The notes below the pieces were generated by a model. That model searched no databases and was not told where the DNA came from. It saw only the letters and a program-made list of their open reading frames with translations. The translations under genes and the position numbers were made by a program. From a virus, in IMG/VR virus record IMGVR_UViG_3300047443_000090, positions 23,260 through 87,259 of that record: DNA of 64,000 nucleotides; one strand, 5' to 3'. Positions 44,651-64,000 of the stretch are shown piece after piece (positions within the stretch are counted from its first letter, which is position 1; every line of letters begins with the position of its first letter).

Positions 44651-45142
44651 ATGGCAGATAAAAAAACACTGATTTTCGACTTCTTCGAGCTGTCGGAAAA
44701 AGACGCCTCGATTAAGAAAGCGAAGCGCTACTTCGAGCAGGCCGGGGCGAGCGTGACGAGCGTCGATGTGGACTCGAAGGTACGCCGCGCCGCTGGCGTG
44801 TCCTACCGCGAAGTGCAGTTCGGCTTTGCCGATAGCCAGTCGGTCAGCTTCGGCGTGAAAAACACTGGCGACGTGTATCAGGTCAAGGTCAACGGCAAGC
44901 TGACCCCACTGAAAGCGCAGGACGACCACCTGAAGGCAATCGGTGAAATCGTGGCCGCGATGACCAAGGGCAGGGCCAAATTCCAAGCGGCGCTGGCAAA
45001 GGCCAAGGTTGCATTGCCCGCCTCGATCCGCACCGCCGCCCCAAAGATGGAGCAGGCATTGCGCGAGCAGATTACGGCGGTAGACGAGGCAATCGTCGCG
45101 GCAACCGAACGGCTCGCCGCCTTGCAGCCAGCAGCGGCTTAG
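44651..45142 (+). CDS. Candidate internal head or scaffold protein, 163 aa
   Basis: The N-terminal 100 residues are alpha/beta (KKTLIFDFFELSEKDASIKK, then SYREVQFGFADSQSVSFGVK). The C-terminal 60 residues are helical (APKMEQALREQITAVDEAIV). The position right before the capsid gene fits a scaffold. I also recall a distant likeness to small DarA-related proteins, which are internal head proteins of P1-type phages; this is from memory. It ends before late promoter G. Confidence 0.45.
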   Translation: MADKKTLIFDFFELSEKDASIKKAKRYFEQAGASVTSVDVDSKVRRAAGVSYREVQFGFADSQSVSFGVKNTGDVYQVKVNGKLTPLKAQDDHLKAIGEIVAAMTKGRAKFQAALAKAKVALPASIRTAAPKMEQALREQITAVDEAIVAATERLAALQPAAA

Positions 45143-45257: not shown

Positions 45258-46892
45258 ATGAGCGGAACTGAAAAGAAGTACACCACCAATGATGCCAACG
45301 AGCTGCAAAAGTTCGTCAGCACCGTTACCAGCGCTGAAGGCAAAGAAGGCGTGGTATTCGATTCGGCCAGCATGACCGCATCGGCGGTTGATGCAATTGG
45401 CAATCAATCCGGCAGCACCCCGCGCGTGCTGTCCGAACTGCTGGGCGTTTCGACCATTGAAGAAAAGGCCATCGTCAAGGCCGTGTTCGATGGCGTCAAT
45501 GCGTACACCCGCGAACATGGCGTCGCACCGACCGGCGACGTTCTGCTGTCGGCAATTCACCAAGCGCGCGGCATCTTCGACTCGGTGAGCAACGGCCACC
45601 ACGACCAGATTTCGGTGTTCCCGAATGCCCCTATCGTCGCCATCATGGGCGCGATGGCCGAAGCAACCCCGTTCGCTGGCTACCTGCCCGCCGACAAAGG
45701 CTCGAATGAAGCCCGCCTCATCATCGTCAACCACAATGCCGGTAGCGCATGGGGCGATTACAAGGCTGGTGACATCATGGACGGTATCGCCGCTGGCGGT
45801 TCCTACCTCGGTTCCTCGCGCACTGCTGAACTGGCCGCGCCGAACGACACCGTAAACTACAAATTCACCTTCAAGAACGGTTCGGACGGCTCCGGCGCGG
45901 TGTTGAACATGCTGCGTGGCCGCTCCATCATCTACGTCAACGGCGTGATGGCTGCAACCGAATCGGCAAACGGCCCTAGCGGCGCGGCCACCGTTGCAAT
46001 CAACGGCTACATCAACTTGGGCGGCACCGATTACACGCTGGCGGGCACCGTCAAGCCAGCCAGCGGCGAAGTTGTCGTTACCCCTACCCCGGCCTTCCCC
46101 GGCGGCACCGTAGTTACCACCGAAGTATTCGTGGACTACGAAGCTGACCCAAGCGTGACGCCACGCATGGCCGTGCAGGCATCCAGCTACTCGCTGTTCG
46201 CCAACCCGTTCCGTGCCATCTACCAGATCACCCCTGAAGCTCGCTCGCAGTTTGCGAACGAAGTGGGCGTGGACGCTGGCGCCGAAGCGATGCTGGCGGT
46301 TCGCGGCCAGTACGCGCAAGAGCGCCACTACAACGCGCTGACCAAGGCCAAGATGATGGGCAAGTACAACAACGCGGCCACCTACGACTTCGCCTATGCT
46401 GCGCAAATCCTGCAAAAGACCCGCGCACAAATCTGGCAAGACTTCGCCTCGGTACTGGGCGCTGTCTCGCAAAAGATGGCCGAAGATACCGCCGACCACG
46501 GCGTCACCCACCTGTACGTTACCCGCAGCGTCGCCGCGCAGTTCCTGTCGATGCCGCGCGAGCTGTTTGAGCCGAGCGGCATCACCGCACGCCCTGGCGT
46601 CTACCGCGTGGGCCGCCTGTTCGGCCTGTACGACGTGTACTACACCCCGAAGGTGCTGAATGAAGCAGGCGGCGGCGCTACTGCCGAAATCCTGTGCGTT
46701 GGTCGCTCGACCCAAACCGCGCGCTGCCCGATCATCTTTGGCGATGCGGCGGCCCCAGTATTCGAGCAACTGGGCACCGGCACCGACCTGAAATCCGGCT
46801 ACGGCTTCAATGCGCGTTCGTTCACTGCGACGAACCCGCACCTGATGTCGGCCAAAGGTGCCGCGCTGATTACCGTCAGCAACCTGAAGTAA
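45258..46892 (+). CDS. Major capsid protein, 544 aa
   Basis: The N-terminal 110 residues are helical (VLSELLGVSTIEEKAIVKAV). The central domain is beta-rich, with an insertion at about residues 205-300 (GTVVTTEVFVDYEADPSVTP). The C-terminal domain has RGQYAQERHYNALTKAKMMG, then VTHLYVTRSVAAQFLSMPRE and a strand pair FGLYDVYYTPKVL, as in T4 gp23/P1-type capsid proteins of the HK97 fold. The long leader and strong ribosome site fit an abundant protein. Confidence 0.78.
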   Translation: MSGTEKKYTTNDANELQKFVSTVTSAEGKEGVVFDSASMTASAVDAIGNQSGSTPRVLSELLGVSTIEEKAIVKAVFDGVNAYTREHGVAPTGDVLLSAIHQARGIFDSVSNGHHDQISVFPNAPIVAIMGAMAEATPFAGYLPADKGSNEARLIIVNHNAGSAWGDYKAGDIMDGIAAGGSYLGSSRTAELAAPNDTVNYKFTFKNGSDGSGAVLNMLRGRSIIYVNGVMAATESANGPSGAATVAINGYINLGGTDYTLAGTVKPASGEVVVTPTPAFPGGTVVTTEVFVDYEADPSVTPRMAVQASSYSLFANPFRAIYQITPEARSQFANEVGVDAGAEAMLAVRGQYAQERHYNALTKAKMMGKYNNAATYDFAYAAQILQKTRAQIWQDFASVLGAVSQKMAEDTADHGVTHLYVTRSVAAQFLSMPRELFEPSGITARPGVYRVGRLFGLYDVYYTPKVLNEAGGGATAEILCVGRSTQTARCPIIFGDAAAPVFEQLGTGTDLKSGYGFNARSFTATNPHLMSAKGAALITVSNLK

Positions 46893-47245: not shown

Positions 47246-48877
47246 ATGTTCACCCCTCACACTCGCCAACTGGGCGCACAGCCCGGCGTGCAACTGAATC
47301 CGCTGCGCGATTCGACGGACGGCTTCGCTGGCGACAATAGCGACCAGATCGCCGCTGTTGTAGGCCGGTTCCGCCGTGGCCGTATCGACCGCGCTTTCCG
47401 CGTCAACCGCCAAAACCTGCGCACGAAGCTGGGCGTGCCTGAATCCCTGCGCGTGTCGGCGCTGAATGAAGCCTATGTACAGACCTATGAAGGTGTGAAC
47501 AACGGCATCTACGAGGCTGTGGTAGCGCGCCTCGTCACCTCTGCCTACACCAATGGCTACGCCGTTTTCAACATCGCCGGAACTGGCACGTCGTCGTTCT
47601 CGGTATCGCCTACCGTCCCAGCAGGCCCGTATCTGTTCTACCTGCAAATGCTCGACTGCTTCAATGATGGCTACCAGTTTGAGCTGTTGGCTGCAAAAGT
47701 TCTCGCGTCGGACGGCGTTACCTCGGCACCTGCAAAAGTCGTAACTCTGCGCGTGCGTGAGCCCGATGGCACGCTGATGCACGAATTCACTGGCTCGCTC
47801 GACTCGCTGGCTGTCGATGAATACGGCAAGGACTACTTTATCGGCACCGTCATCGCAAACCAGACCGACGCTGTGCAGATCACCGTTTTCAACGGCGCAA
47901 CCGTCCCGATTAACGCTGATTGCTATGGTCGCAATACGGATGGTTCGGACAAGGTTGCGGCAAGTGGCGCAAACCCGCTCGTACTGTTCACCGAAGGCGG
48001 CACTGGCTACATCGCTACCGACTACGACAGGGCAATCGCCCTGCTGGAAAACGGTTCGGTTGACTTCGGCTATATCTACAGCGGCGGTTCGCAAGCGGTA
48101 TCCCTGCTGTCGAAGCTGGCGCAGCTCGCGGTGCGCGCCAACCGCCAGTTTGCGTTCGACGTTCCCGGCAACCTGACGCCGACAGCGGCCATCACGTTCA
48201 TTGCTCAATTGAACCTCGATACCCATTATGCGCAAGCGTACTGGGCACCGCTGATTACCGATGATCCGGTCAACGGCGGCAAGGCTTATATCGGCACGGC
48301 GGCCTATAACGTTGGCCTGCGCTGCGCCCGCAACGCGCAGACCAATGCCTATGGCTTGCCCCCCAAAAACTTCCCGGTCGCGGGCAAGGAATGGCCGCTG
48401 AATCGTACCGGCGTCAAGCAAACCGGCGCACCAAACGACTATGAACTGAGCGATTTGGCTACCGCCAAGATCAACCCGGTTCTGTACCAGCGCTACAACG
48501 GCGGCGGCGGCAAGTACGTTTTCACCGACGTTCTGACCTGCGCCAAGGTTGCGACCTCGTATCGCAAACTAGTATCCGTGTCGGAAATGAGCGCGACCGT
48601 GGATGATATGGTTGCCAAGTTCGGGCGCGAGGTAATGCTGCTGCCGATTGATACCGCAATGAAGCGGCTCGACTCGTTCCTGAAATCGACTTTCGATGCC
48701 TGCCGTTCGTCTGACTGGCTGGTTGCATCCGATGATCCGGTGCTGGGCGAAAAGGGCTATACCTTCACGGTGGCCCGCAATAAGGTTCGCCCGGCTGACC
48801 GCATCGACGTTACCTACGGCACGCACTACGATGGCGTTGCTCGCGCAATCTACATCACGCAAACCCTGTCCAAATAA
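47246..48877 (+). CDS. Tail sheath protein, 543 aa
   Basis: The C-terminal half is typical of contractile sheaths: SVDFGYIYSGGSQAVSLLSK, LDTHYAQAYWAPLITDDP, NVGLRCARNAQTNAYGLPPK and ATAKINPVLYQRYNGGGG, a set of strands and helices that wrap the tube. An N-terminal domain and a variable middle domain (about 105-230) precede it. Ends with the strand TYGTHYDGVARAIYITQTL that links neighbouring subunits. Contraction drives the tube through the envelope. Length and order fit P1 and T4 sheaths. Confidence 0.85.
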   Translation: MFTPHTRQLGAQPGVQLNPLRDSTDGFAGDNSDQIAAVVGRFRRGRIDRAFRVNRQNLRTKLGVPESLRVSALNEAYVQTYEGVNNGIYEAVVARLVTSAYTNGYAVFNIAGTGTSSFSVSPTVPAGPYLFYLQMLDCFNDGYQFELLAAKVLASDGVTSAPAKVVTLRVREPDGTLMHEFTGSLDSLAVDEYGKDYFIGTVIANQTDAVQITVFNGATVPINADCYGRNTDGSDKVAASGANPLVLFTEGGTGYIATDYDRAIALLENGSVDFGYIYSGGSQAVSLLSKLAQLAVRANRQFAFDVPGNLTPTAAITFIAQLNLDTHYAQAYWAPLITDDPVNGGKAYIGTAAYNVGLRCARNAQTNAYGLPPKNFPVAGKEWPLNRTGVKQTGAPNDYELSDLATAKINPVLYQRYNGGGGKYVFTDVLTCAKVATSYRKLVSVSEMSATVDDMVAKFGREVMLLPIDTAMKRLDSFLKSTFDACRSSDWLVASDDPVLGEKGYTFTVARNKVRPADRIDVTYGTHYDGVARAIYITQTLSK

Positions 48878-49718: not shown

Positions 49719-50543
49719 ATGGCTACCGAAAACGAAATAACCTTCCTGTCGTCCCACTGGAAGGGATTATCAAAGCATCTGATTGCAGTCTTCTATCCGC
49801 TGAAAAGACTGCCGGATGGCTCTGGCTGGGAGCAAAGTTCGGGAACCCGCGAACTCAACGCCAAGGACAAGTACATAGTCGATGATGGGTTCGAGGTGCG
49901 CGCGCCAATATCGGACGGCAATCAGGAAATGACCCTGAACTGGAATAGCCCATTTGAAGGCACTGGCGCAGAAGCGAAGGCACCAGCCCTGACTGCGATG
50001 CTCCAGTCCGGCACTTTGAATGGGACGCTGACGGCGGCAGCGCAATGGATTGGACGCCAATTTGGGGCTGGCGACGTAGATGCCGCCGCAGCTACCGGCT
50101 TGCTGGGTCGTGCCACTGGCCGGACTGGTATCACAAAGTTAAATTCCACGCAGATTTTCTCTGGTATGCCGCCAATAAAGCTGACGATGACGCTTCATTT
50201 CCGGGCGTTGGAAGACCCGGTAAAAGAAGTGCGCAAGCCGATCATGCAGCTCAAGCAATGGGCCTTGCCGCAGCTCTTGTCTGCCGATGGGCTGATTTCC
50301 GGGGTAATCAAGGGCAATGAGGATGGCTATATCGAAAAGATATTCCCATCTATCTCGCCGCAAATCATTGGTATGCGCTATGGCGATATGACCTATGAGC
50401 CAATGGTTATAGAAAGCATATCCGAACCATTCACATTACCGCGCTCGAAAGATGGCGTCATTGTTGCGCAAAGCATCCAAATTACGCTTGCAACACTGAC
50501 CGCCCTTGATCGCCGCGACCTCGAAAAAATTTACATACGATGA
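49719..50543 (+). CDS. Baseplate or tail-tube-cap protein, 274 aa
   Basis: Segments such as GFEVRAPISDGNQEMTLNWN and PIKLTMTLHFRALEDPVKEV are strand-rich, with a helix pair in the middle (VRKPIMQLKQWALPQLLSAD). The C-terminus resembles LysM-bearing tube-cap proteins (EPMVIESISEPFTLPRSKDG). Position after the sheath and before tail-assembly genes fits. The ATG coincides with the predicted transcript start. Confidence 0.5.
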   Translation: MATENEITFLSSHWKGLSKHLIAVFYPLKRLPDGSGWEQSSGTRELNAKDKYIVDDGFEVRAPISDGNQEMTLNWNSPFEGTGAEAKAPALTAMLQSGTLNGTLTAAAQWIGRQFGAGDVDAAAATGLLGRATGRTGITKLNSTQIFSGMPPIKLTMTLHFRALEDPVKEVRKPIMQLKQWALPQLLSADGLISGVIKGNEDGYIEKIFPSISPQIIGMRYGDMTYEPMVIESISEPFTLPRSKDGVIVAQSIQITLATLTALDRRDLEKIYIR

Positions 50544-52031: not shown

Positions 52032-52663
52032 TTCTTGCAGATCAACTCGTAGTCATCATGCCAGCCTCCGGGCCGGTATCGGCTGTATTCACGCCGCCGT
52101 TGAACGCGGCGATGCATGAATTCGACATCACGACGCAGCGCCGCGCTGAATTCTTCATGGCGCAAATCGCCGTTGAATCCGGCCAGCTCCGCTCGTTGCA
52201 GGAGAATCTGAATTACAGCTCCGAAGGGCTGATGAAAACGTGGCCGGGCCGGTTCCCCACCAAGGCCATTGCCGACGCCTACGCGCACCGCCCGCAGGCC
52301 ATCGCCAACAAGGTGTATGCCAACCGTGGCGGCAATGGCGACGAGGCCAGCGGCGACGGCTGGCGCTACCGTGGCGCGGGCCTGATCGGGCTGACGTTCC
52401 ACGACAACCAGAAGAAGTGCGCCGACTACTTCGGCATCGACGTGCGCGACGTGGGCGACTGGCTGCGCACGCCAGAAGGCGCTTGCCGTTCGGCGGCATG
52501 GTTCTGGCGCGAGCATGGTTGCAACGTGCTGGCCGATATGGGCGACTTCGACGGCGTTTCCGATGCGATCAACATCGGGCACCAGACCGCCGCAGAAGGC
52601 GACGCCATTGGCTACGCTGACCGGCTCGCCTTCCTCGCCGCCGCGCAGGAGGCCAACGTATGA
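52025..52663 (+). CDS. Endolysin, GH19 chitinase-like, 212 aa
   Basis: The GH19 pattern is clear: FFMAQIAVESGQLRSLQENL with a catalytic Glu near residue 51, then YSSEGLMKTWPGRFPTK, IANKVYANRGGNGDEASGDG and WRYRGAGLIGLTF. The C-terminal half completes the family fold (GVSDAINIGHQ). It cleaves the glycan strand of peptidoglycan. There is no signal peptide, so release needs the holin. Length is normal for single-domain GH19 phage lysins. Confidence 0.85.
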   Translation: MLILADQLVVIMPASGPVSAVFTPPLNAAMHEFDITTQRRAEFFMAQIAVESGQLRSLQENLNYSSEGLMKTWPGRFPTKAIADAYAHRPQAIANKVYANRGGNGDEASGDGWRYRGAGLIGLTFHDNQKKCADYFGIDVRDVGDWLRTPEGACRSAAWFWREHGCNVLADMGDFDGVSDAINIGHQTAAEGDAIGYADRLAFLAAAQEANV

Positions 52664-53259
52664 AGCTGATTTTTTCGCTGATGACGCCCGGCGCATGGCT
52701 CGCGCTGCTGGCCGCCCTGCTGCTGTCTGTGGGCGCTGGCGGCGCAGTCGGCTATCAGGTTGCCTCCGGGCTGGCCGAAATCCGCGAGCTGAAGGTGCAG
52801 GGCGAAATTCAAAGCTGGAAATTGGCCTATGCCGCCGCGCAGGCCCACGAGACTGAAAAAGTAAACCGCTTGACCGAAGCCCGCCTCAAGGACGTGGCCG
52901 AAGTTGCAAGCAAACACAAAGAGGAAATGGACGATGCAAAAAACACTATCGACGCTCTGCGCGCTGACGTGCGCAATGGCGCTGTGCGGCTGTCAATCGC
53001 AACCCGCCCGCCAGCTCGTCCCAGTGGTAGTGCCGCAAGCGGCAATCCCTCCCCTGCCGATGGAGCTGGGGCGGAAACGCGAAGTGAACTTTCTCCCGAG
53101 GCTTCTGAATTTCTTATCGACTTCGCCGGGCGATGCGACGCAAACACCCGCCAACTGAATTCCGTAATCGACGCCTATAACTCCATTCGACAGCCTGTTA
53201 GTTCCGGCGCTGCCACGGTTGAAATGTCAACGCTTCAAGTGGAGAGTAGCCGTGATTAA
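52660..53259 (+). CDS. Rz: Inner-membrane spanin Rz, 199 aa
   Basis: One N-terminal membrane helix at about residues 11-34 (AWLALLAALLLSVGAGGAVG) is followed by a long periplasmic coiled coil (about 40-105, ending NTIDALRADVRNGAVRL) as in Rz i-spanins. It bridges to the outer-membrane lipoprotein Rz1 nested in its gene to fuse the membranes in the last lysis step. The last 62 bases overlap the 3' end of the opposing HNH gene, and the C-terminal 20 residues may be altered by that insertion. Confidence 0.75.
   Translation: MKLIFSLMTPGAWLALLAALLLSVGAGGAVGYQVASGLAEIRELKVQGEIQSWKLAYAAAQAHETEKVNRLTEARLKDVAEVASKHKEEMDDAKNTIDALRADVRNGAVRLSIATRPPARPSGSAASGNPSPADGAGAETRSELSPEASEFLIDFAGRCDANTRQLNSVIDAYNSIRQPVSSGAATVEMSTLQVESSRD
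52934..53158 (+). CDS. Rz1: Outer-membrane spanin lipoprotein Rz1, nested in Rz, 74 aa
   Basis: ATG 52934 starts a frame shifted against Rz. A lipoprotein signal ends in the lipobox LCGC (TCAMALCGC), followed by a Pro-rich mature part (VPVVVPQAAIPPLP), the normal Rz1 layout. A longer frame from 52904 adds ten residues (MQANTKRKWT). The protein would be anchored in the outer membrane and bind Rz. Confidence 0.75.
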   Translation: MQKTLSTLCALTCAMALCGCQSQPARQLVPVVVPQAAIPPLPMELGRKREVNFLPRLLNFLSTSPGDATQTPAN

Positions 53260-54128: not shown

Positions 54129-54496
54129 GCACTATTGATTGGAAACGCGGCGACAGCTTCCTCGTTGAAGAACTGGGAATGCTGAAGCCTGACCCTGACG
54201 GCACCCTCAAGATGATCGTCAACGGCGAGGAAGTGCCCGCCTCCGCGCTTGATATGACCGGCTGGGCCGTCGCGTCGCAGATTCGCCGCAAGGATAGCGA
54301 CGAGCTGGTGTGCGACTTGGAATTCGCGTGGGTCAATCAGGTTCAAGGCAGCTACCGCCTTCAGGCAAAGGACACGTCGGCATGGCCGCTGGCGATGCTG
54401 TCATGGGACGTGCAATTCACGAACCCGGACGGCTTTATCTCGTCGTCCGAAACCATGTTCATTCGCTGCAAAAAAGATCAAACGAGGGCCGCATGA
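54125..54496 (+). CDS. Tail-fibre-associated protein, 123 aa
   Basis: Beta-rich: STIDWKRGDSFLVEELGMLK, then GWAVASQIRRKDSDELVCDL and WDVQFTNPDGFISSSETMFI. Proteins of this type (W.GD.F at the N-terminus and Q-strand pairs) sit before fibre genes in many tailed phages and are thought to be structural. Both ends overlap neighbours as ATGA. Confidence 0.55.
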   Translation: MSTIDWKRGDSFLVEELGMLKPDPDGTLKMIVNGEEVPASALDMTGWAVASQIRRKDSDELVCDLEFAWVNQVQGSYRLQAKDTSAWPLAMLSWDVQFTNPDGFISSSETMFIRCKKDQTRAA

Positions 54497-57400
54497 CAGT
54501 GCTTCAAAACAATTTCCTGATTGATGGCCGGATCGTGTCGAACCTCACCGTTGAAGGCGCGCGCTCGAATCTGACTCTGGTATCCCCACAAATCAATTCG
54601 TCGCTGTCTCTCGCGCAAGGCCCGGCAACGAACCTTGCGATTGGCGGAAACCCTGTTCTTCCTTCGCTGGTTGTCGGATCGTCCGATAAGGAGCTGGCTG
54701 GTGCGTCCGAAGCTACCGCGCAGGCCCGCATTGCCGCCGCCGCCGCCATCAGCGCGGCATCCAGTGCTGACGCTGCGCAAGATGCTGCCGACAGCACCAA
54801 GACCGATTCTGACGCCGCAAAGCTGGCCGCCGCCCAAGCCGTAGATAGCGCTGTGCAAGCCCGCGCCGATGCCGATGCTGTGGCCGCTGAAGCCGCCGCC
54901 GTTTCTCAGGCCGCCGCGAGTGTTGCCGACATCGAGCACAGCGTTAGCACGCTGGCCGGGGAGGCTGGCATAAGCGCTGCCGCTGCCAAAGCTGATGCCG
55001 TATTGGCTGGGAAAGCGGCGCAGGCGGCGTTCGACGCGCGGGACGCATCGCAGCAGTCAGCCAATGACTCCGCGTACTCGGCCAGCGCTGCCGACGATAG
55101 CGAGGCCGCTGCGCTGGCCGCCCAGCAAGCCGCCGCCGCGTCTGCTGCCGCCGCACTGGCTTCGCAGCAGGAGGCGACCGCGCAGGCCGCCGCCGCCGAC
55201 GACAGCAAGGCCGCCGCGCTGGCCGCCCAGCAGGCCGCGACTGAGCAGGCCGCCGCCGCCGCGCAATCCGCCGCCGCCGCCGACGACAGCGAAGCCTCCG
55301 CGCTGGATGCCAAGCAGGCCGCTACGGCGCAGGCTGACGCCGCCGCTCAATCCGCCGCCGCCGCCGCCGCGAGTGCGCAGGACGCGATAGTTTCACAAGT
55401 TCAAGCCAACTGGACTGAAGCCGACACTGCAAACAAGGGCTACATCAAGAACAAGCCCGCACTCGCCGCCGTTGCTACGACTGGCGCGAAGGCTGACGTT
55501 GGCCTTGGCAGCGTGGACAACACCAGTGACGTGAACAAGCCGGTAAGCACCGCGCAGGCCGCCGCCATCGCGTTGAAGCAGGACGCCTCGGCCAAGGATG
55601 CCTCTGACGGCTTCGCGGGCCTGACCTTGTTCAAGTTGAATTTGAAGAATGCGGCTGGCGCGATCACGTCATTCCTGACGAACGCCGCGACAGTCGCGCG
55701 CACTTGGACTTTCCCCGACAAAGACGGCACGGTCGCGATGCTGTCCGACATCACCGGCACCAACTCGGGCACCAATACCGGCGACGAAACGCTGGCAACG
55801 ATCAAGACCAAGCTGGGCATTGCCACGCTGTCCGGCTCGAACACTGGCGACCAAACGCTGGCCTCGCTGGGCATCCCGAACGTGGACAACACCAGCGACG
55901 TGAACAAGCCGGTATCGACCGCGCAGCAGGCGGCGCTTGACCTGAAAGCCCCGCTGACTGGCGCTGGTGCTTCTGGCACTTGGCCTATCGGCGTGTCGGG
56001 CAATGCGGCCACCGCAACCAAGCTGGCGACGCCGCGCACCATCAACGGCGTGACATTCGACGGAACGGCCAATATCACGCTGGCAAAGGCTGATATCGGC
56101 TTGGGCAGCGTCGATAACACCAGCGACGTAAACAAGCCAGTATCGACCGCGCAGGCCGCCGCGCTTGCACTGAAAGCGCCGCTGGACTCGCCCACCTTCA
56201 CCGGCCCGGTCAACGTGCCGAACGTCGCCGCTGGCAACAACACGGCACTGGCCGCCAACACGGCATTCGTGACGGCGGCGGTCGCGCAGGGCAAAGCCGA
56301 TATTCTCGGCTCGGCCCCGGCTGCACTTGACACGCTGAACGAGTTTGCCGCCGCGCTGGGCAACGACGCCAATTTCGCCACGACTACCGCGACCTCGCTG
56401 GGCAACCGCCTGCGCGTGGACACGGCAACGCAAGGGCTGACCGCAGGCCAGAAAACCAATGCCGCGACGAACCTTGGCCTCGCCGCCGTCGCCACGTCCG
56501 GCGCGAAAGCCGATGTCGGCCTCGGCAGCGTGGACAACACCAGCGACGCCAGCAAGCCGGTATCGACGGCGACGCAGACCGCCTTGAACCTGAAAGCGGA
56601 TAAGGCCAGCCCCACCTTCACTGGCACGGCTACCGCGCCCAACTTCGCGGGCAATCTGACTGGCTACAAGAACGTCGATAACACGAACGAAATGACGCTG
56701 GCCAATGGTTTTGCTGGCGGCCAGTTGTACATGAACTACCGGGGCGCATCGAGCGCTATCACGCAGGTATTGGTCGGCAATGGCATACCTGCCAGCGGCG
56801 TTCTCGCCAAGATCATCGCCCTCAATATCGACGCATCCGGTAACGTGACCGGCAATGCTGCCACGGCAACCAAGCTGGCAACGGCACGCACGATCAACGG
56901 TATCGCCTTTGACGGCACCGCCAATATCACGCTGGCGAAGGCTGACATCAGCTTGGGCAGCGTAGACAATACCAGCGACATGGGCAAGCCGGTATCGACG
57001 GCGCAGGCCGCTGCAATCGCGCTGAAGCAGGACGCGGCTGGTAAGGATGCCTCTGACGGCTTCGCGGGCCTGACGCTGTTCAAGTTGAATTTGAAGAATG
57101 CGGCTGGCGCGATCACGTCATTCCTGACGAGCGCCGCGACAGTCGCGCGCACTTGGACTTTCCCCGACGAAGACGGCACCGTTGCCATGCTGTCCGATAT
57201 CACCGGCACCAACTCGGGCACCAACACTGGCGACGAAACGCTGGCAACGATTAAGGCCAAGCTGGGCATTGCCACGCTGTCCGGCTCGAACACTGGCGAC
57301 CAAACGCTGGCCTCGCTGGGTATCCCGAACGTGGACAACACCAGTGACGTAAACAAGCCAGTTTCGACAGCGCAGACCGCCGCGCTTGCGCTGAAAGCCA

Positions 57401-60204
57401 ATATTGCCAGCCCGGTATTCACTGGCGTGGCCGCTGCGCCCCAGTTCTTCTCGACCACCTCCAACGGCTACCGTATGAAGGACTCGACGGCGACCACCGG
57501 CTATGCCTCGTTCTGGCGCAAAGACAGCTCGGCGCTGTATCTGATGCTGACTGACTTGGACAACGCTGATGGCACGTTCAACGCGCTGCGCCCGATGACG
57601 GTCACGCTCGCCACCGGCAAAGTAAACTTTGGCAATGGAGCGCTCACGATCAACCACGGCGGCACCGTAACCGCCGTGACGCCAGCGCCCGGCGACAACA
57701 GCACGACGCTTGCAACGACTGCTTACGCTGACACATTGGGGGCAACGAAAGCCCCACTGACCGGCGCTGGCACGTCGGGCACTTGGCCTATCGGTGTGAC
57801 CGGCAATGCTGCCACGGCAACCAAGCTGGCGACGCCGCGCACCATCAACGGCGTGGCTTTCGACGGCACCGCGAACATCAGCCTCGGCCTCGCCGCCGTC
57901 GCCACGTCCGGCGCAAAGGCCGACGTGGGCCTCGGCAACGCCGATAACACCAGCGACGTGAACAAGCCAGTTTCGACCGCGCAGGCCGCCGCGCTTGCGC
58001 TGAAAGCGCCGCTGGACTCGCCCACTTTCACTGGCCCGGTCAACGTGCCGAACGTCGCCGCTGGCAACAACACGGCACTGGCCGCAAACACGGCATTCGT
58101 GACGGCGGCGGTCGCGCAGGGCAAGGCCGACATTCTCGGCTCGGCCCCGGCAGCACTGGACACGCTGAACGAGTTTGCGGCGGCGCTGGGCAACGACGCG
58201 AATTTCGCCACGACTACCGCGACCTCGCTGGGCAACCGCCTGCGCGTGGACACGGCAGCTCAGGGCTTGACCGCAGGCCAGAAAACCAACGCGGCGACGA
58301 ACCTTGGCCTCGCCGCCGTCGCCACGTCCGGCGCGAAAGCTGATGTCGGCCTCGGCAGCGTGGACAACACCAGCGACGCCAGCAAGCCGGTATCGACGGC
58401 GCAGGCCGCCGCCATCGCGCTCAAGCAGGACGCGGCTGGTAAGGATGCCTCGGGCGGCTTCGCGGGCCTGACCCTGTTCAAGTTGAATTTGAAGAACGTC
58501 GCTGGCACCTTCATTTCGTTTTTCACGAACACGAACACGGCAGCGCGCACCTACACCCTGCCCGACAAAGACGGCACGGTTGCCATGCTGGCCGACATCA
58601 CCGGCACCAACTCGGGCATCAACACTGGCGACGAAACGCTGGCTACGATCAAGACCAAGCTGGGCATTGCCACGCTGTCCGGCTCGAACACTGGCGATCA
58701 AACGCTGGCCTCGCTGGGCATCCCAAACGTCAATAACACCAGCGACGCCGCCAAGCCTGTTTCTACTGCGCAGCAGGCAGCGCTGGACTTGAAGGCGAAC
58801 ATCGCCAACCCAAGCTTCACGGGTATTGTTAATTCGAGCGGGCCAATTGAGTTAGGACAAGTTGGTACTTCTAATTCACCGTTTATTGACTTCCATTCGG
58901 GGGCTACTGGCGTTGATTACGACGCCCGCATAATGGCAGGCGGAGGGAACGGGACTAGCGGCAATGGTTCTCTGCAAGTATATTCGGCCTCGCTAGACCT
59001 CACGACCGCTGGCAATGTGACGGTGGCGACGAAGGCCCAAGGTAACAACAGCACGAGCGCTGCCAGCACGGCCTACGTGGACGCCCTCGGTGCGACGAAA
59101 CAAGCCTCACTCGGCTACACGCCGATTCAGCAAGGGGGCGGGGCTACACAAGGCACTAATAAGATTTATATCGGCTGGTCTAGTTCAAACCAGATGGCGT
59201 TGCAGGTTGATGGAACAAGCTTTGGCTCAACGTGGCCTATGAGCGTGACAGGTTCGGCAGGATCTACGACGTTTGTTGCCGCGCTGGCAAATTACGTTTG
59301 GGATGCCTCGACTTTGCCCGCCTCCTATGCGTTAGGTATTCAGTCGAGTTTTGTACAAGCTGCCCAAGGGTTCCCTAGCTACGGCTCGTTGATGACGATG
59401 AAGACGTATAGCGGCGGCGGCGGCAGCTTGCAAATGTACGTGCCTTACTCGCCGACCAATGGCGGCTCCAGCATCAAAGTTCGCTTCGGTAACTTCGATG
59501 TGAGCAGCGGCAATTCATGGACTGGCTGGGGGACGATTCCTTGCGTTGAAAACTCGAACTATTGGACTGGCACGCAACAGTTCAAAGGCAACAAGGGCAA
59601 CGGCTCGTTAAACGGCGCGCAGTTTAATTACCCCCTTATGGCGTATTCGGACGACTTGGGTGCCGCCGCCATGTCCTTCCATCGTAGCGGTGCTTACGCC
59701 ATCAACATGGGTCTTGACCCGGATAACGTGTTCCGCATTGGCGGCTGGTCTATGGCTCAGAACAGATTCCAGATGGATCCATCTGGCAATCTGACGATGG
59801 CAGGTAACATCATTGCCTATTCCGACGAGCGGTTGAAAACCAACTGGCGCAGCCTGCAACCCACGTTCATCGAAGAATGGGCGCAGGTAAAGCATGGCGT
59901 GTATGACCGCATCGACAGTGGAGAGACTCAGCTTGGCGTTTCCGCTCAGGGCGCGCAGAAGGTGCTGCCGTTCTCCGTGACGAGACAAAACGACGGCTAC
60001 CTCGCGTTCAACTACGGCGCAGCGGCAGCGGTGGCGACGATTCAACTCTCGCAAGAGGTGCTGCTGCTGCGCGCCGAGTCGCGCAAGCAATCCGCACTTA
60101 TTAAAATTCTGATGGATCGCATGCCGCTGGAAATCCCCTGCGTACAGCGCTCGCGAGTCGCAGCTATGATCGACCGGCTGAAGAAAAAGATAGGACTGAA
60201 ATGA
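54493..60204 (+). CDS. Giant tail fibre with S74 autoprocessing chaperone, 1903 aa
   Basis: ATG 54493 overlaps the upstream stop; a longer frame from 54310 is rejected. Residues about 75-310 are Ala-rich coiled coil. About 330-1500 are built from tandem repeats of two modules (TNSGTNTGDETLATIKTKLG and LNEFAAALGNDANFATTT types), each present two or three times at high DNA identity. The C-terminus has the S74 intramolecular chaperone: YSDERLKTNWRSL with the catalytic Ser at 1777, QLGVSAQGAQKVLP, and a final coiled coil. The chaperone (about 127 residues) trimerises the fibre then cuts itself off. Confidence 0.85.
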   Translation: MTVLQNNFLIDGRIVSNLTVEGARSNLTLVSPQINSSLSLAQGPATNLAIGGNPVLPSLVVGSSDKELAGASEATAQARIAAAAAISAASSADAAQDAADSTKTDSDAAKLAAAQAVDSAVQARADADAVAAEAAAVSQAAASVADIEHSVSTLAGEAGISAAAAKADAVLAGKAAQAAFDARDASQQSANDSAYSASAADDSEAAALAAQQAAAASAAAALASQQEATAQAAAADDSKAAALAAQQAATEQAAAAAQSAAAADDSEASALDAKQAATAQADAAAQSAAAAAASAQDAIVSQVQANWTEADTANKGYIKNKPALAAVATTGAKADVGLGSVDNTSDVNKPVSTAQAAAIALKQDASAKDASDGFAGLTLFKLNLKNAAGAITSFLTNAATVARTWTFPDKDGTVAMLSDITGTNSGTNTGDETLATIKTKLGIATLSGSNTGDQTLASLGIPNVDNTSDVNKPVSTAQQAALDLKAPLTGAGASGTWPIGVSGNAATATKLATPRTINGVTFDGTANITLAKADIGLGSVDNTSDVNKPVSTAQAAALALKAPLDSPTFTGPVNVPNVAAGNNTALAANTAFVTAAVAQGKADILGSAPAALDTLNEFAAALGNDANFATTTATSLGNRLRVDTATQGLTAGQKTNAATNLGLAAVATSGAKADVGLGSVDNTSDASKPVSTATQTALNLKADKASPTFTGTATAPNFAGNLTGYKNVDNTNEMTLANGFAGGQLYMNYRGASSAITQVLVGNGIPASGVLAKIIALNIDASGNVTGNAATATKLATARTINGIAFDGTANITLAKADISLGSVDNTSDMGKPVSTAQAAAIALKQDAAGKDASDGFAGLTLFKLNLKNAAGAITSFLTSAATVARTWTFPDEDGTVAMLSDITGTNSGTNTGDETLATIKAKLGIATLSGSNTGDQTLASLGIPNVDNTSDVNKPVSTAQTAALALKANIASPVFTGVAAAPQFFSTTSNGYRMKDSTATTGYASFWRKDSSALYLMLTDLDNADGTFNALRPMTVTLATGKVNFGNGALTINHGGTVTAVTPAPGDNSTTLATTAYADTLGATKAPLTGAGTSGTWPIGVTGNAATATKLATPRTINGVAFDGTANISLGLAAVATSGAKADVGLGNADNTSDVNKPVSTAQAAALALKAPLDSPTFTGPVNVPNVAAGNNTALAANTAFVTAAVAQGKADILGSAPAALDTLNEFAAALGNDANFATTTATSLGNRLRVDTAAQGLTAGQKTNAATNLGLAAVATSGAKADVGLGSVDNTSDASKPVSTAQAAAIALKQDAAGKDASGGFAGLTLFKLNLKNVAGTFISFFTNTNTAARTYTLPDKDGTVAMLADITGTNSGINTGDETLATIKTKLGIATLSGSNTGDQTLASLGIPNVNNTSDAAKPVSTAQQAALDLKANIANPSFTGIVNSSGPIELGQVGTSNSPFIDFHSGATGVDYDARIMAGGGNGTSGNGSLQVYSASLDLTTAGNVTVATKAQGNNSTSAASTAYVDALGATKQASLGYTPIQQGGGATQGTNKIYIGWSSSNQMALQVDGTSFGSTWPMSVTGSAGSTTFVAALANYVWDASTLPASYALGIQSSFVQAAQGFPSYGSLMTMKTYSGGGGSLQMYVPYSPTNGGSSIKVRFGNFDVSSGNSWTGWGTIPCVENSNYWTGTQQFKGNKGNGSLNGAQFNYPLMAYSDDLGAAAMSFHRSGAYAINMGLDPDNVFRIGGWSMAQNRFQMDPSGNLTMAGNIIAYSDERLKTNWRSLQPTFIEEWAQVKHGVYDRIDSGETQLGVSAQGAQKVLPFSVTRQNDGYLAFNYGAAAAVATIQLSQEVLLLRAESRKQSALIKILMDRMPLEIPCVQRSRVAAMIDRLKKKIGLK
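55606..58770 (+). repeat. Long imperfect DNA repeats inside the fibre gene
   Basis: A segment of about 310 bases coding SFLT..TNSGTNTGDETLAT and onward occurs near 55610, 57060 and 58459. A second one of about 480 bases coding PTFTGPVNVPNVAAG to VGLGSVDNTSD occurs near 56092 and 57910. Copies differ mostly at third bases, suggesting expansion by recombination or conversion. Confidence 0.75.
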
Positions 60205-60851
60205 ACGCTTACGAAATCACCAATGTAGTGCCGGAAGTTACCGATGGCGTCATGGTCAATTTGGATTTTGACCTCACCGTATCGGACTACATGGGCAATG
60301 CCGAAAGCCGCCACCTTCAAGGTAGCGGCGGGGGCGTCCCAGTCCCATCGAGTGACGCGCTGCAAGCCATGTGCTTCAATATCGCAAAGGAACAGGGCAC
60401 CATTCAGCAGCTCGATACCATGCTGTCCGACAGGCGCACGCCTGTCTATGTCCCGCCGCCGCCGCCGCCACCGCCGTCGCTGGATCAGGTAAAGGCGACG
60501 CTCATGGCGCAGATCGACGCCAACATTGCGCGGGTCTACAGCCTATACACGCGCTTCCAAATGGAATACGAGGAGCGTGAGAAAGCCGCGCTGGAGTACA
60601 AGGCGTCCGACTACACGTCCGATCCGACGCCGTGGCTGACTGCGTTCGCAGACACTACGGGCATATCCTACCCAGCATGCGCGGAGCTGGTGCTGTCGCA
60701 GGCCAATGCGCTGCGGGACGCCATCAAGAGCCTTGGCATCCAACGCATGTACAAATACAAGGTGTATAACGCCGCCACCGCAGAAGACGCGCAAAGTGCA
60801 TTTGGCACGGTCATGGCTGACGTAGCAGTGATTGCAAGGAGTCTGCCATGA
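60201..60851 (+). CDS. Tail-fibre-assembly-like protein, 216 aa
   Basis: The N-terminal 75 residues are beta-rich (MVNLDFDLTVSDYMGNAESR). A run of eight prolines follows near residue 84-92, then a helical C-terminal domain (MAQIDANIARVYSLYTRFQM onward, with a YPACAELVLSQANAL segment) like the DUF4376 fibre-assembly family. It directly follows the giant fibre and overlaps its stop. It probably helps fold or attach the fibre. Confidence 0.6.
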   Translation: MNAYEITNVVPEVTDGVMVNLDFDLTVSDYMGNAESRHLQGSGGGVPVPSSDALQAMCFNIAKEQGTIQQLDTMLSDRRTPVYVPPPPPPPPSLDQVKATLMAQIDANIARVYSLYTRFQMEYEEREKAALEYKASDYTSDPTPWLTAFADTTGISYPACAELVLSQANALRDAIKSLGIQRMYKYKVYNAATAEDAQSAFGTVMADVAVIARSLP

Positions 60852-61330
60852 GCCTGCCGTCGTCAGGTCAGATTGATATGAACCAGATCGAGGTGGAGGC
60901 TGGTTTCTCAGGCGGGCAAAATATCTGGCTCGACCACGCCGCTATGCGAACCCTCGCTGGCCGCCCCGGCTCAGGGACTTACATTGCGATGTCCGACTTC
61001 TACGGCAAAAGCTCGTTCTCAGCGTGGGGCAACAACGCATCGGCTGACATGGATACGTCTGGTAGTGGAGGCTACGTCACATGCTTCCCATCGGTAACAC
61101 CAGTTGGCGGCACCGGGTCGTACACCTACTCGTGGGCTGTCAATTCCAACGATATGTCAGCAACCGTGAGCAACACGACCTCACAGTCTTGCACGGTGCA
61201 AAAGAACGTGGGCAGAAACTCAGGCGGTAGTGGCACTTGCATTCTCCAATGCACCGTGTCCGACACCGGGGGACACACCGTTACGGTATATAACATTTCC
61301 GCTGTGCTCAGTTGGAGCAGCAGCATGTAA
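60848..61330 (+). CDS. Receptor-binding or fibre-tip protein with Ig-like domain, 160 aa
   Basis: The first 60 residues follow the common phage adhesin layout: MSLPSSGQIDMNQIEVEAGF to MSDFYGKSS. Residues about 65-160 form an Ig-like beta sandwich (TPVGGTGSYTYSWAVNSND, SCTVQKNVGRNSGG, CILQCTVSDTGGHT). Such proteins sit at fibre tips or on the virion surface. It overlaps the previous stop. Function inferred from pattern and place. Confidence 0.6.
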   Translation: MSLPSSGQIDMNQIEVEAGFSGGQNIWLDHAAMRTLAGRPGSGTYIAMSDFYGKSSFSAWGNNASADMDTSGSGGYVTCFPSVTPVGGTGSYTYSWAVNSNDMSATVSNTTSQSCTVQKNVGRNSGGSGTCILQCTVSDTGGHTVTVYNISAVLSWSSSM

Positions 61331-61340
61331 GGGGTATGGA

Positions 61341-61739
61341 TTGACTGCATTTGCTTGGCTCAAACGCTTTGCCGTTTTACTTTTGTTGTGGGCCGCCCGC
61401 GTCGCCGCGTCTGCGCTTTCTTCCGCCCCGATGCTGCGCGCGATTGCTTGGTTCAAACGTTTTGCCGTCTTGCTTTTGTTGTGGCCTGTCTGTGTCGCAG
61501 CATCGGCACTTTCTTCCGCCCTGATGCTACGCGCGATCATCTTCAACCATGATCGCGCGTGGCGTCAGGCGATATCCTATGACCAGCTCGCCAATGCCGC
61601 AACTGGCGGCAGCGAGGACGAAACCATAAGCTCCAGAGCGAACCGCGCGGAGTCGAACGGGCGGAGGTGGGGCTGTGTGCTGTGCAGGCTGCTTGATAAG
61701 GTTGAAAAAGACCACTGCCGAAAATCGGCGGGCACCTGA
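61341..61739 (+). CDS. Conserved phage membrane protein with a duplicated N-terminus, TTG start, 132 aa
   Basis: TTG 61341 follows AAGGGG by six bases; no ATG fits. The C-terminal 60 residues read DRAWRQAISYDQLANAATGG then SEDETISSRANRAESNG and LCRLLDKVEKDHC, a conserved phage and prophage pattern. Ahead of it lies a 31-residue unit, AWLKRFAVLLLLW...SSAPMLRAI, twice in a row, each with a hydrophobic helix. The repeat is also seen in DNA at 61353 and 61446. It ends two bases from trfA, convergent. Confidence 0.65.
   Translation: MTAFAWLKRFAVLLLLWAARVAASALSSAPMLRAIAWFKRFAVLLLLWPVCVAASALSSALMLRAIIFNHDRAWRQAISYDQLANAATGGSEDETISSRANRAESNGRRWGCVLCRLLDKVEKDHCRKSAGT
61353..61538 (+). repeat. 93-bp tandem duplication inside the membrane-protein gene
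   Basis: Two copies, 61353-61445 and 61446-61538, are mostly identical, with differences largely at third positions and in one divergent central stretch. The unit keeps frame (31 codons) and doubles a membrane helix. Confidence 0.75.
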
Positions 61740-61741
61740 GC

Positions 61742-62605
61742 CTATTGCTTTGGCAGCGCCCGAACCCGGATGACGGAAACAACGTCCGACACCGGGTCTA
61801 TGTTCCAGTGGGATAGAAAGCCGCAGTCCTTCAGCTTTTCGAGTGCTTTTTTCAGCAGGCCACGAAACGAGCGCAGTTCCTTGCACTTCGAGCCGCATAG
61901 GCCATACAGCGTTTCAACGCGATATTGGAATGGCTCGCGGTGCGTGAAGTAGAAGCTGTGCAGCCATTTTGCCAGCGGCGTAAGTACAAGCCGCTGATCC
62001 CAGTCCACTAGCGTGTAGCCATCGGATGCGAAAAGCGCGACGATTTCCCGCTCAAGGTAGATCGTCCATTCCGTACTCGCGCCGCCGCCAGTTTCATCTT
62101 CATCTATCGACCATTTGACTTTCCGAAGTAGGCTGCCAGTGAAGCCCTTGCGGCCATCGGCCCTTGCAACGATCACGGTTGACTCGGACAGGCGCAGCAG
62201 CGATTCGCGTAGGCGTGCATAGTCTTGCTTTCCGCGCCCCCACCGCAAGGCCATCAGCATGCGATGCGCTGTAGTCTTAGCGCCTTCCTCGGTGCTTCGC
62301 AGCCGGGCGATATGCACCGCCTGCAAAAAAACGTCCTCGTCATCCTGCCGCAATTCCTCGCCGGTATAGTAGAGATCAAACCCGTTCACGGTGGCGATCC
62401 GCATTCGCTTCATTGTGTCGCGCGGCTCTTTTTTGCCTGCCGCCGTGAAAAGTGCGCTACGTGCAAATGGGTTTGGTATGCCGCGTTGCTCGTCGGGCCA
62501 TAGGGGGAGCTGCACCGGGGCGGCGACCACGCGCCGCTTTTCTTGGAGGCGCTTTGCGGCGTCAATGAGGCGGCTGCTATTTTCGTTGTGCTCGTCTTGG
62601 CTCAT
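61742..62605 (-). CDS. trfA: TrfA-family plasmid replication initiator, 287 aa
   Basis: The N-terminal part carries the TrfA signature RGIPNPFARSALFTAAGKKE near residue 40. Two winged-helix domains follow (TVNGFDLYYTGEELRQDDED; LARSALF-type turn; LTPLAKWLHSFYFTHREPFQ and a RSFRGLLKKALEKL helix near the end). I chose ATG 62605 (MSQDEHNENS) because the longer frame to 62737 is a translation of the iterons. TrfA binds iterons, opens the origin and loads DnaB, and sets copy number. The iterons lie directly upstream. Confidence 0.85.
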   Translation of the reverse strand: MSQDEHNENSSRLIDAAKRLQEKRRVVAAPVQLPLWPDEQRGIPNPFARSALFTAAGKKEPRDTMKRMRIATVNGFDLYYTGEELRQDDEDVFLQAVHIARLRSTEEGAKTTAHRMLMALRWGRGKQDYARLRESLLRLSESTVIVARADGRKGFTGSLLRKVKWSIDEDETGGGASTEWTIYLEREIVALFASDGYTLVDWDQRLVLTPLAKWLHSFYFTHREPFQYRVETLYGLCGSKCKELRSFRGLLKKALEKLKDCGFLSHWNIDPVSDVVSVIRVRALPKQ

Positions 62606-62623
62606 GCTGTCCTGCTGGTGGCG

Positions 62624-62810
62624 TTCGTGTTTTGAGCTGCGGTAGTTGCTTGCTGCCAGAGCTGCGGCCCCGGTTCGTGTTTTGAGCTGCGCCCCGGTTC
62701 GTGTTTTGAGATTCGATATTCGTGTTTTGAGCTGCAAAAACCGATTTCATTCGTTCTTTGAACTGCGGTCTATCGTGTTTTGAACTGCGGCAATTCGTGT
62801 TTTGAGCTTC
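62624..62810 (+). repeat. Seven direct iterons, 17 bp, consensus TTCGTGTTTTGAGCTGC
   Basis: Copies start at 62624, 62674, 62698, 62719, 62750, 62772 and 62794. Three are perfect (62624, 62674, 62719); 62698 and 62794 differ near the end; 62750 and 62772 are more diverged. The last copies are spaced 21-31 bases, close to two helical turns, as expected for cooperative binding by a TrfA-like initiator. Confidence 0.85.
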
Positions 62811-62854
62811 AGCGCCGTTCTGAATTTCACATTAGAATCAATGACTTAGGGTGG

Positions 62855-62863
62855 TTATCCAGA
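62855..62863 (+). promoter_or_regulatory. DnaA-box-like site
   Basis: TTATCCAGA differs from TTATCCACA at one base and lies between the iterons and the AT-rich tract, where host DnaA would assist opening. Confidence 0.5.
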
Positions 62864-62913
62864 CCCCTATAATCTTCTTTTAATCATCTTCTAATCAAAA
62901 CCAGCGCTTTCCT

Positions 62914-62930
62914 GCAACTCAAAACACGAA
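62914..62930 (-). repeat. Inverted iteron beside the parB-like gene
   Basis: The reverse complement reads TTCGTGTTTTGAGTTGC, one base from consensus. It lies three bases before the stop of the parB-like gene and is separated from the direct iterons by the AT-rich tract, so it may serve in handcuffing or autoregulation. Confidence 0.7.
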
Positions 62931-62932
62931 CA

Positions 62933-63526
62933 TCAGGCTTCCGCATCCGGCGAATAGTGCTTTGCGATCAGCGCATCAACATACCCAGTGACCGCTTTTT
63001 CCAGTGCTACCTGAATCGAACGGTGCTTCGGGACGTTATCGGCTACCCATGCAAGCTTTGCATGCAGGGCTCTCGACATTCTGAAATTGTACCCAACAAT
63101 GCTATCCGGGCTCTCGACTTCCCAAGGGGCTGGTTCTGCGGGCGCTGGAGGCTCTTTCGGCGCGTCGGTGGCGCGTTTATGCGTATGAGGCTGCGCGTCG
63201 CTTGTAGGTGGCTTCTCGGCCCTCCCATCGACCTTCGGCTTGCGAGCGGGTTTGTCCTGGCTGTTCGCGGCTGTAGCTGCCGCTGGTTGCGCGGATAATT
63301 CTGGCAGCGCTTCAGCAAGCGCGGCATCTTTGGCCGCTTGCGCTGCGGGCGGCAGGGGTGGCGTGCTGGTAGCTGCCTGCGCAGGCGTTGTCGCCTCTGC
63401 TGGCGAGGTCAGTGCTTCGACAGGCTTGCCAGCCGGGTTTATCGCCAGATGTTCTTCGGGGAGGTTGTTGGCGGCGGCCACGAAATCGGCGGGCGACCGA
63501 AAGCCCTTTTTCGCTGGCTTGTTCAT
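62933..63526 (-). CDS. ParB-like centromere-binding partner, 197 aa
   Basis: ATG 63526 overlaps the parA stop as ATGA, with AGAGG upstream; ATG 63532 is the alternative. The N-terminal 25 residues (MNKPAKKGFRSPADFVAAAN) are basic and could contact ParA. A long Pro/Ala linker follows. The C-terminal 60 residues (IVGYNFRMSRALHAKLAWVA then IQVALEKAVTGYVDAL) look like a ribbon-helix-helix DNA-binding domain. Paired with ParA it would segregate the plasmid. No classical ParB HTH or CTPase domain is present. Confidence 0.6.
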   Translation of the reverse strand: MNKPAKKGFRSPADFVAAANNLPEEHLAINPAGKPVEALTSPAEATTPAQAATSTPPLPPAAQAAKDAALAEALPELSAQPAAATAANSQDKPARKPKVDGRAEKPPTSDAQPHTHKRATDAPKEPPAPAEPAPWEVESPDSIVGYNFRMSRALHAKLAWVADNVPKHRSIQVALEKAVTGYVDALIAKHYSPDAEA

Positions 63527-64000
63527 GCCCATACCTCTTTCGCCAGTGCGCGCATTTCTTCGGCGGCCTTTTCGTCGCCCCTGATGTACTCGACCGCTGC
63601 CATTCCATCGCGCGCGCAGAGCCGGTACGTCTTGCGGTCTTTCACGATGGTATCGAGCATGGTGTAGTTCTTCAGTTCCTCAACAAAATCGGCCATTTCC
63701 TGCGCATCCGTCATCCTCGGGTTCGTCGGCGCGATGTTGGTCAGGATTGCCGCTTGCAGGTTGACGTTGAACGCTCTTGCCTCGGCTACCAGCTTGTCCA
63801 TCTTCGACAGCGTGAACACGTCGAACTGGGACGGCTTCGCAGGCGTCACGATGGCGTCAGCGACCAGCATCCCGGCGCGCAGCTCCAGAGAATCCACGCC
63901 TCCAGCGTCTATCACGATGTCATCGAACTTACCGGCCAGCCGCCGCACCTCGTCGGCCAGCGTGGAGCCGTACACCGACACGCAAGTGATGTGGGGTGTG
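63523..64000 (-). CDS. parA: ParA-family partition ATPase, N-terminus outside the window
   Basis: The frame is open to the window edge, so the Walker A motif is not visible. Seen are FDDIVIDAGGVDSLELRAGM (Walker B-like, with DAGG in place of the common DTPP/DxG), ADAIVTPAKPSQFDVFTLSK and LQAAILTNIAPTNPR, in the order of ParA/MinD ATPases. The C-terminal helices follow normally. It would drive plasmid partition with the partner encoded downstream. A GTG at 63981 is not a credible start. Confidence 0.75.
   Translation of the reverse strand, partial: TPHITCVSVYGSTLADEVRRLAGKFDDIVIDAGGVDSLELRAGMLVADAIVTPAKPSQFDVFTLSKMDKLVAEARAFNVNLQAAILTNIAPTNPRMTDAQEMADFVEELKNYTMLDTIVKDRKTYRLCARDGMAAVEYIRGDEKAAEEMRALAKEVWA

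Follow-up and report, generated by a model that had tools for sequence, protein, structure and literature searches.

We describe an 87,132-bp circular virus genome that is very probably a P1-like temperate phage-plasmid of a Burkholderiaceae-like host, with an exchangeable initiator slot that would now hold a TrfA/iteron module. Plasmid replication, partition and particle formation, as well as the host and the direction of the exchange, are what we infer from its sequence. The window analysed is a stretch of 64 kb, bases 23,260-87,259 and thus the final part of an 87,259-bp virus record; coordinates below are those of the window unless the record is named, and the first 23 kb of the record, outside the window, were also read. 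The first-pass annotation had proposed looking for a circular contig, and the first and last 127 bases of the record are indeed identical, an exact terminal repeat that joins the record into a circle of 87,132 bp. Such a repeat indicates circularity or circular permutation and is not in itself proof of a plasmid state. The circular join falls within parA, which is uninterrupted across it, and once the circle is closed the replicon lies in the middle of the element. A home-made gene caller predicted 104 genes, whose edges are approximate, and the circle carries a complete virion gene set together with plasmid replication and partition genes. No tRNA genes were found; statements of absence, here and below, are bounded by the collections and profiles searched.

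The trfA replicon and the par locus

The plasmid replication initiator gene trfA lies on the minus strand at 61742-62605 and encodes 287 aa from its most likely start, the ATG at 62605. TrfA-type initiators are known from plasmids such as RK2, and TrfA replicons are noted for their wide host range. The first-pass identification of TrfA on this strand was borne out by a profile search (PF07042, 4.3e-30, 105 bits against a curated cut-off of 22), and an alignment contains the invariant TrfA blocks ELRQDDxDVFLQ and KWLHSFY. The protein is 44-50% identical to TrfA of Burkholderia plasmids, and the best PDB matches of its AlphaFold model (mean pLDDT 73.5) are RctB initiator domains and the TrfA-DNA entry 9a0w, with modest TM-scores in both cases. 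The codon score of trfA is low against the phage genes. An alternative TTG start at 62737, which would add 44 aa, is less likely, as the added stretch is read out of the iterons and its codon scores are non-coding.

Upstream of trfA are seven direct iterons at 62623-62817 (plus strand, consensus TTCGTGTTTTGAGCTGC, spacing 21-50 bp) and one inverted iteron at 62914-62931 (minus strand), which bounds the origin and adjoins the end of the small par-operon gene. The iteron core TCGTGTTTTGAGCT has seven matches at two mismatches or fewer in the window, every one of them at trfA between 62625 and 62929, against 0.5 expected by chance, which substantiates the iterons noted earlier beside the gene. 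The AT-rich stretch at 62820-62900 (plus strand, 60-67% AT per 60 bp), with a DnaA-box-like sequence, TTATCCAGA, inside it at 62855, is a candidate for the oriV unwinding element. Iterons of similar form, with a CTCAAA core, occur upstream of trfA in Burkholderia plasmids and on other virus contigs; the related cores at these other trfA genes, CTCAAAACCCGATA or CTCAAACCACGAA, fit co-evolution of initiator and iterons.

The Walker-type parA gene (minus strand, about 213 aa) occupies 63523-64000 and runs on over the circular join as far as record position 291, so that the ParA seen at the right edge of the window is confirmed and complete. It is 70-73% identical to ParA of two close relatives, G012 and G015. 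The same operon encodes a small protein (62933-63526, minus strand) that is a candidate centromere-binding partner. This neighbour had been called ParB-like, an identity that we reject, as no ParB could be recognised in it and neither Pfam nor PHROG gave a match; a ParB-like protein (phrog_1033) is encoded elsewhere, at record positions 1048-2001. The C-terminal ~55 aa of the small protein are conserved in relatives, two of which have another kind of ParA. Its structure model is of low confidence, and a ribbon-helix-helix fold was not demonstrated with this poor model. Outside the window, at record positions 385-830 upstream of parA, degenerate 5-bp repeats (nnGGT) extend over about 440 bp. 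No other short periodicity in the genome is as strong as their 5-bp period (z 8.6 against shuffles). Each of the nine relatives examined likewise has its strongest 5- or 10-bp periodicity immediately upstream of the par operon, although made of other repeated letters. We regard this phased array as a candidate centromere.

On its other side, trfA had been thought to lie two bases from a convergent phage gene. That open reading frame, 61230-61739, does not look coding: its codon score of -0.25 falls below the minimum of -0.03 for called genes longer than 100 aa, and part of it is shared with a supported gene. The supported phage genes end at 61330, leaving a gap of about 410 bp before trfA. Within this gap, at 61351-61569, are a 93-bp tandem duplication (84% identical) and, after it, a hairpin with 21-nt arms and an 8-nt loop.

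The initiator slot in related elements

Searches with the portal protein returned 24 phage, 678 plasmid, 79 IMG/VR and 32 genome-contig matches. The closest relatives of the element (G000 in our numbering) are G014 (IMGVR_UViG_3300011624_000001), G012 (IMGVR_UViG_3300046674_000362), G011 (IMGVR_UViG_3300028585_000003) and G015 (IMGVR_UViG_3300046665_000384), with 60-63% mean protein identity over 59-73 genes. They are followed by pBVIE05, G016, G017 (Paraburkholderia C35), G018 and G019 at 49-52% mean identity; the value for P1 is 32%. Its virion genes place the element in a P1-related group of Burkholderiaceae elements made up of pBVIE05 and its relatives.

Two members of this group are the nearest named relatives. 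Plasmid pBVIE05 of Burkholderia vietnamiensis G4 (CP000621.1, 88,096 bp) is a closed plasmid of similar size, and the Paraburkholderia sp. C35 contig NZ_QBUY01000024.1 measures 93,160 bp, its viral-record copy having a 77-bp terminal repeat. They share 42 and 37 genes with the element, respectively, at a mean identity of 51-52%, and have the same P1-like virion, the DarB-like genes and the same order of ParA, small protein, initiator and convergent late genes, but their initiator is of the Rep_3 type (PF01051) instead of TrfA. G016, G018 and G019 have this order and a Rep_3 initiator as well, so that in all five a Rep_3 gene follows ParA and is convergent with the late genes, in the position that trfA occupies here. 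As a separate observation, pBVIE05 is the plasmid of a known isolate and is by gene content a P1-related phage-plasmid, with virion genes that are annotated as hypothetical.

The four closest relatives also have their par locus in the same place, G011 and G014 with a ParA of another kind than the one here. In these four the par genes abut the late genes without a recognised initiator between them, a profile search of all four found neither PF07042 nor PF01051, and two of the four are closed circles too. Since these close relatives are so similar and yet have no recognised plasmid initiator, maintenance as a plasmid may not depend on TrfA. Some other system could keep the plasmid, either an unrecognised initiator or the O-like protein shared by the group, with TrfA and its iterons as a recent, optional or second replicon; as an optional replicon the module might then act as a switch of host range or incompatibility. 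This explanation is in keeping with the par loci that the four relatives retain in the absence of either initiator family, with par genes that are native to the group (70-73% identical to G012 and G015) and with the low phage codon score of trfA. We nevertheless consider it rather unlikely, given that the plasmid-form relatives of the second clade have one dedicated Rep_3 initiator in the slot, and we favour TrfA as the probable plasmid initiator of this element.

Among the relatives tested, TrfA is found here only. None of 52 other portal-bearing records, each counted once and several of them fragments, has a PF07042 match (0/52); one searched set of portal-bearing records had no positive at all, and the same profile does find this element and others elsewhere. 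Of 399 Burkholderiaceae genomes, 66 have TrfA, six have the portal and none has both. Another observation from related virion genes is that of a 709-kb megaplasmid of Ideonella dechloratans, in which P1-like virion genes lie beside a diversity-generating retroelement (avd and reverse transcriptase, L081:29894-31458). The first-pass annotation had suggested that a TrfA iteron replicon joined to a contractile virion might define a separate phage-plasmid group. By sequence the combination itself is well supported, while the separate group is not: the initiator slot varies within one group, holding Rep_3 in five members, TrfA in this element and no recognised initiator in the other four, and TrfA is also present in two unrelated virus lineages.

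Phage genes, integrity of the element and predicted life cycle

The rest of the window had been described as virion and lysis genes of a contractile-tail phage, and PHROG matches agree and show the virion to be P1-like. On the plus strand are genes for the portal protein (37205-38803; phrog_1497, 546 bits; 71% identical to pBVIE05 and 28% to P1 Prt), the probable major capsid protein (45258-46892; phrog_1014, 453 bits), which aligns with the annotated major capsid protein of Xanthomonas phage Rb1, the contractile tail sheath (47246-48877; phrog_1036, 435 bits) and a baseplate protein (10081-11493; phrog_1369, 389 bits). The same strand encodes a DarB-like methyltransferase-helicase (29016-35831; phrog_11801, phrog_10089 and a match to P1 darB), an Hdf-like antirestriction protein (44651-45142; phrog_1620), a PmgG-like head morphogenesis protein (49719-50543; phrog_1114) and an endolysin (52112-52663; a homologue of the GH19 protein of pBVIE05), directly followed by spanin-like genes (52660-53259). 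A terminase match to P1-type families is also present. A large gene for the tail fibre and two genes distal to it (54493-61330, plus strand, PHROG tail fibre matches) are the last supported phage genes ahead of the replicon, and their homologues occupy the same place in G011. The tail fibre itself (54493-60204, 1,903 aa) has many internal repeats (LGSVDNTSDxxKPVSTAQ units). Further genes encode a CI-like S24 repressor, an O/DnaD-like initiation protein, a P-like helicase loader, RecT and exonucleases. The sole recombinase identified is a Cin-like invertase; an integrase was not identified in a scan that did not take in every small gene.

P1-like plasmids that have lost phage functions are known (PMC10879196), and the element could likewise be a defective plasmid of phage origin, no longer able to form particles. 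This is improbable here, as the reading frames for terminase, portal, capsid, sheath, baseplate, tail fibre, repressor and lysis proteins are all uninterrupted and lie in the same order as in relatives. A chimeric assembly that joined a TrfA plasmid to a P1-like phage, conceivable for a virus record of metagenome type and raised by the first-pass annotation as a possible error at the junction 61739-61742, is highly improbable: the junction lies within a contig whose ends close in parA, the par genes beyond trfA belong to the phage group, and the identical order of ParA, small protein, initiator and convergent late genes recurs in five other elements, one of them a finished isolate plasmid.

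With an intact P1-like phage-plasmid as the favoured reading, the gene content suggests the following life cycle. During lysogeny the element would persist in its host as a low-copy circular plasmid, its lytic genes silenced by the S24-type repressor. TrfA, bound to the iterons at 62623-62931, would act with DnaA to open the AT-rich stretch and would recruit the host helicase, and ParA, its small partner and the 5-bp-phased array upstream of parA would segregate the copies. After induction, lytic replication would be driven by the O-like and P-like genes, and the phage DNA would be packaged and released by the products of the P1-like virion and lysis genes. The trfA/iteron module would represent one occupant of an initiator slot that lies between par operon and late genes and is open to exchange; in relatives this slot holds Rep_3 or no recognised initiator.

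TrfA in other elements and comparison with known systems

No TrfA was found in INPHARED phages (tblastn with two TrfA queries), and none of the papers found in a literature search reports TrfA in a phage-plasmid of the P1-like kind. TrfA is present on ten IMG/VR contigs, six of which fall by shared genes into two lineages with other virions. In the first (group A: G002, G003 and G010) the tape measure is nearest to that of Pseudomonas phage nickie and a phage DNA polymerase is present; the second (group B: G004, G005 and G007) has a sheath like that of Bordetella phage PHB04. Both have a TrfA 46-49% identical to the one here, ParA nearby and phage terminase and tail genes, but their virions are unrelated to the P1-like virion of this element. 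Contig G003 has the gene content of group A with TrfA and iterons of the group B type, a mixture from which the trfA/iteron module seems to move between virus lineages. In a TrfA tree the virus proteins do not form one clade, and several forks, including the place of the TrfA described here, are poorly settled.

We tentatively propose, as an idea that could well prove wrong, that TrfA/iteron modules move between unrelated phages as a plug-in replicon, and that P1-like phage-plasmids have a dedicated, exchangeable initiator slot for them next to a conserved par locus whose centromere is phased at 5 bp. If so, phages would borrow a broad-host-range plasmid replicon and switch incompatibility. 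Because TrfA replicons have a wide host range, a phage lysogen could persist more widely, and TrfA in phages could thus widen the host range of the lysogen and alter which plasmids it excludes. Phage-plasmids trade replication and partition genes with plasmids (PMC10879196). The present family illustrates such exchange at one fixed slot, the same virion being combined with Rep_3 in some members, TrfA in one and no recognised initiator in others.

Among conventional plasmids, the Burkholderia plasmids pTY921B and p86s5p have the same order of ParA, partner, iteron array and trfA as the element, a TrfA 49-50% identical to that here and the related iteron core CTCAAACCACGAA. Both, having the closest TrfA among Burkholderia plasmids, were considered as possible phage-plasmids and set aside, as in the stretches viewed they are conventional plasmids with no virion genes. 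Compared with IncP-1, trfA is here surrounded by phage genes, and the iterons are unlike the RK2 iteron.

Escherichia phage P1 (Punavirus) is a contractile phage-plasmid of similar size. It has about 17-18 genes homologous to those of the element, with 21-64% identity over the matched pieces, and the virion, packaging and antirestriction homologues include the portal, terminase, capsid, DarB and Hdf, alongside the Cin-like invertase. The Rep_3 profile PF01051, which is positive for P1 RepA, found no match in the element in the same search; the P1 cre region had no match at E 1e-3, and other P1 reading frames did not match the replication genes here. At the thresholds used, P1 RepA (Rep_3), ParA/ParB, Cre and RepL have no counterpart in the element, in which TrfA and the O/P-like proteins would fill the replication roles.
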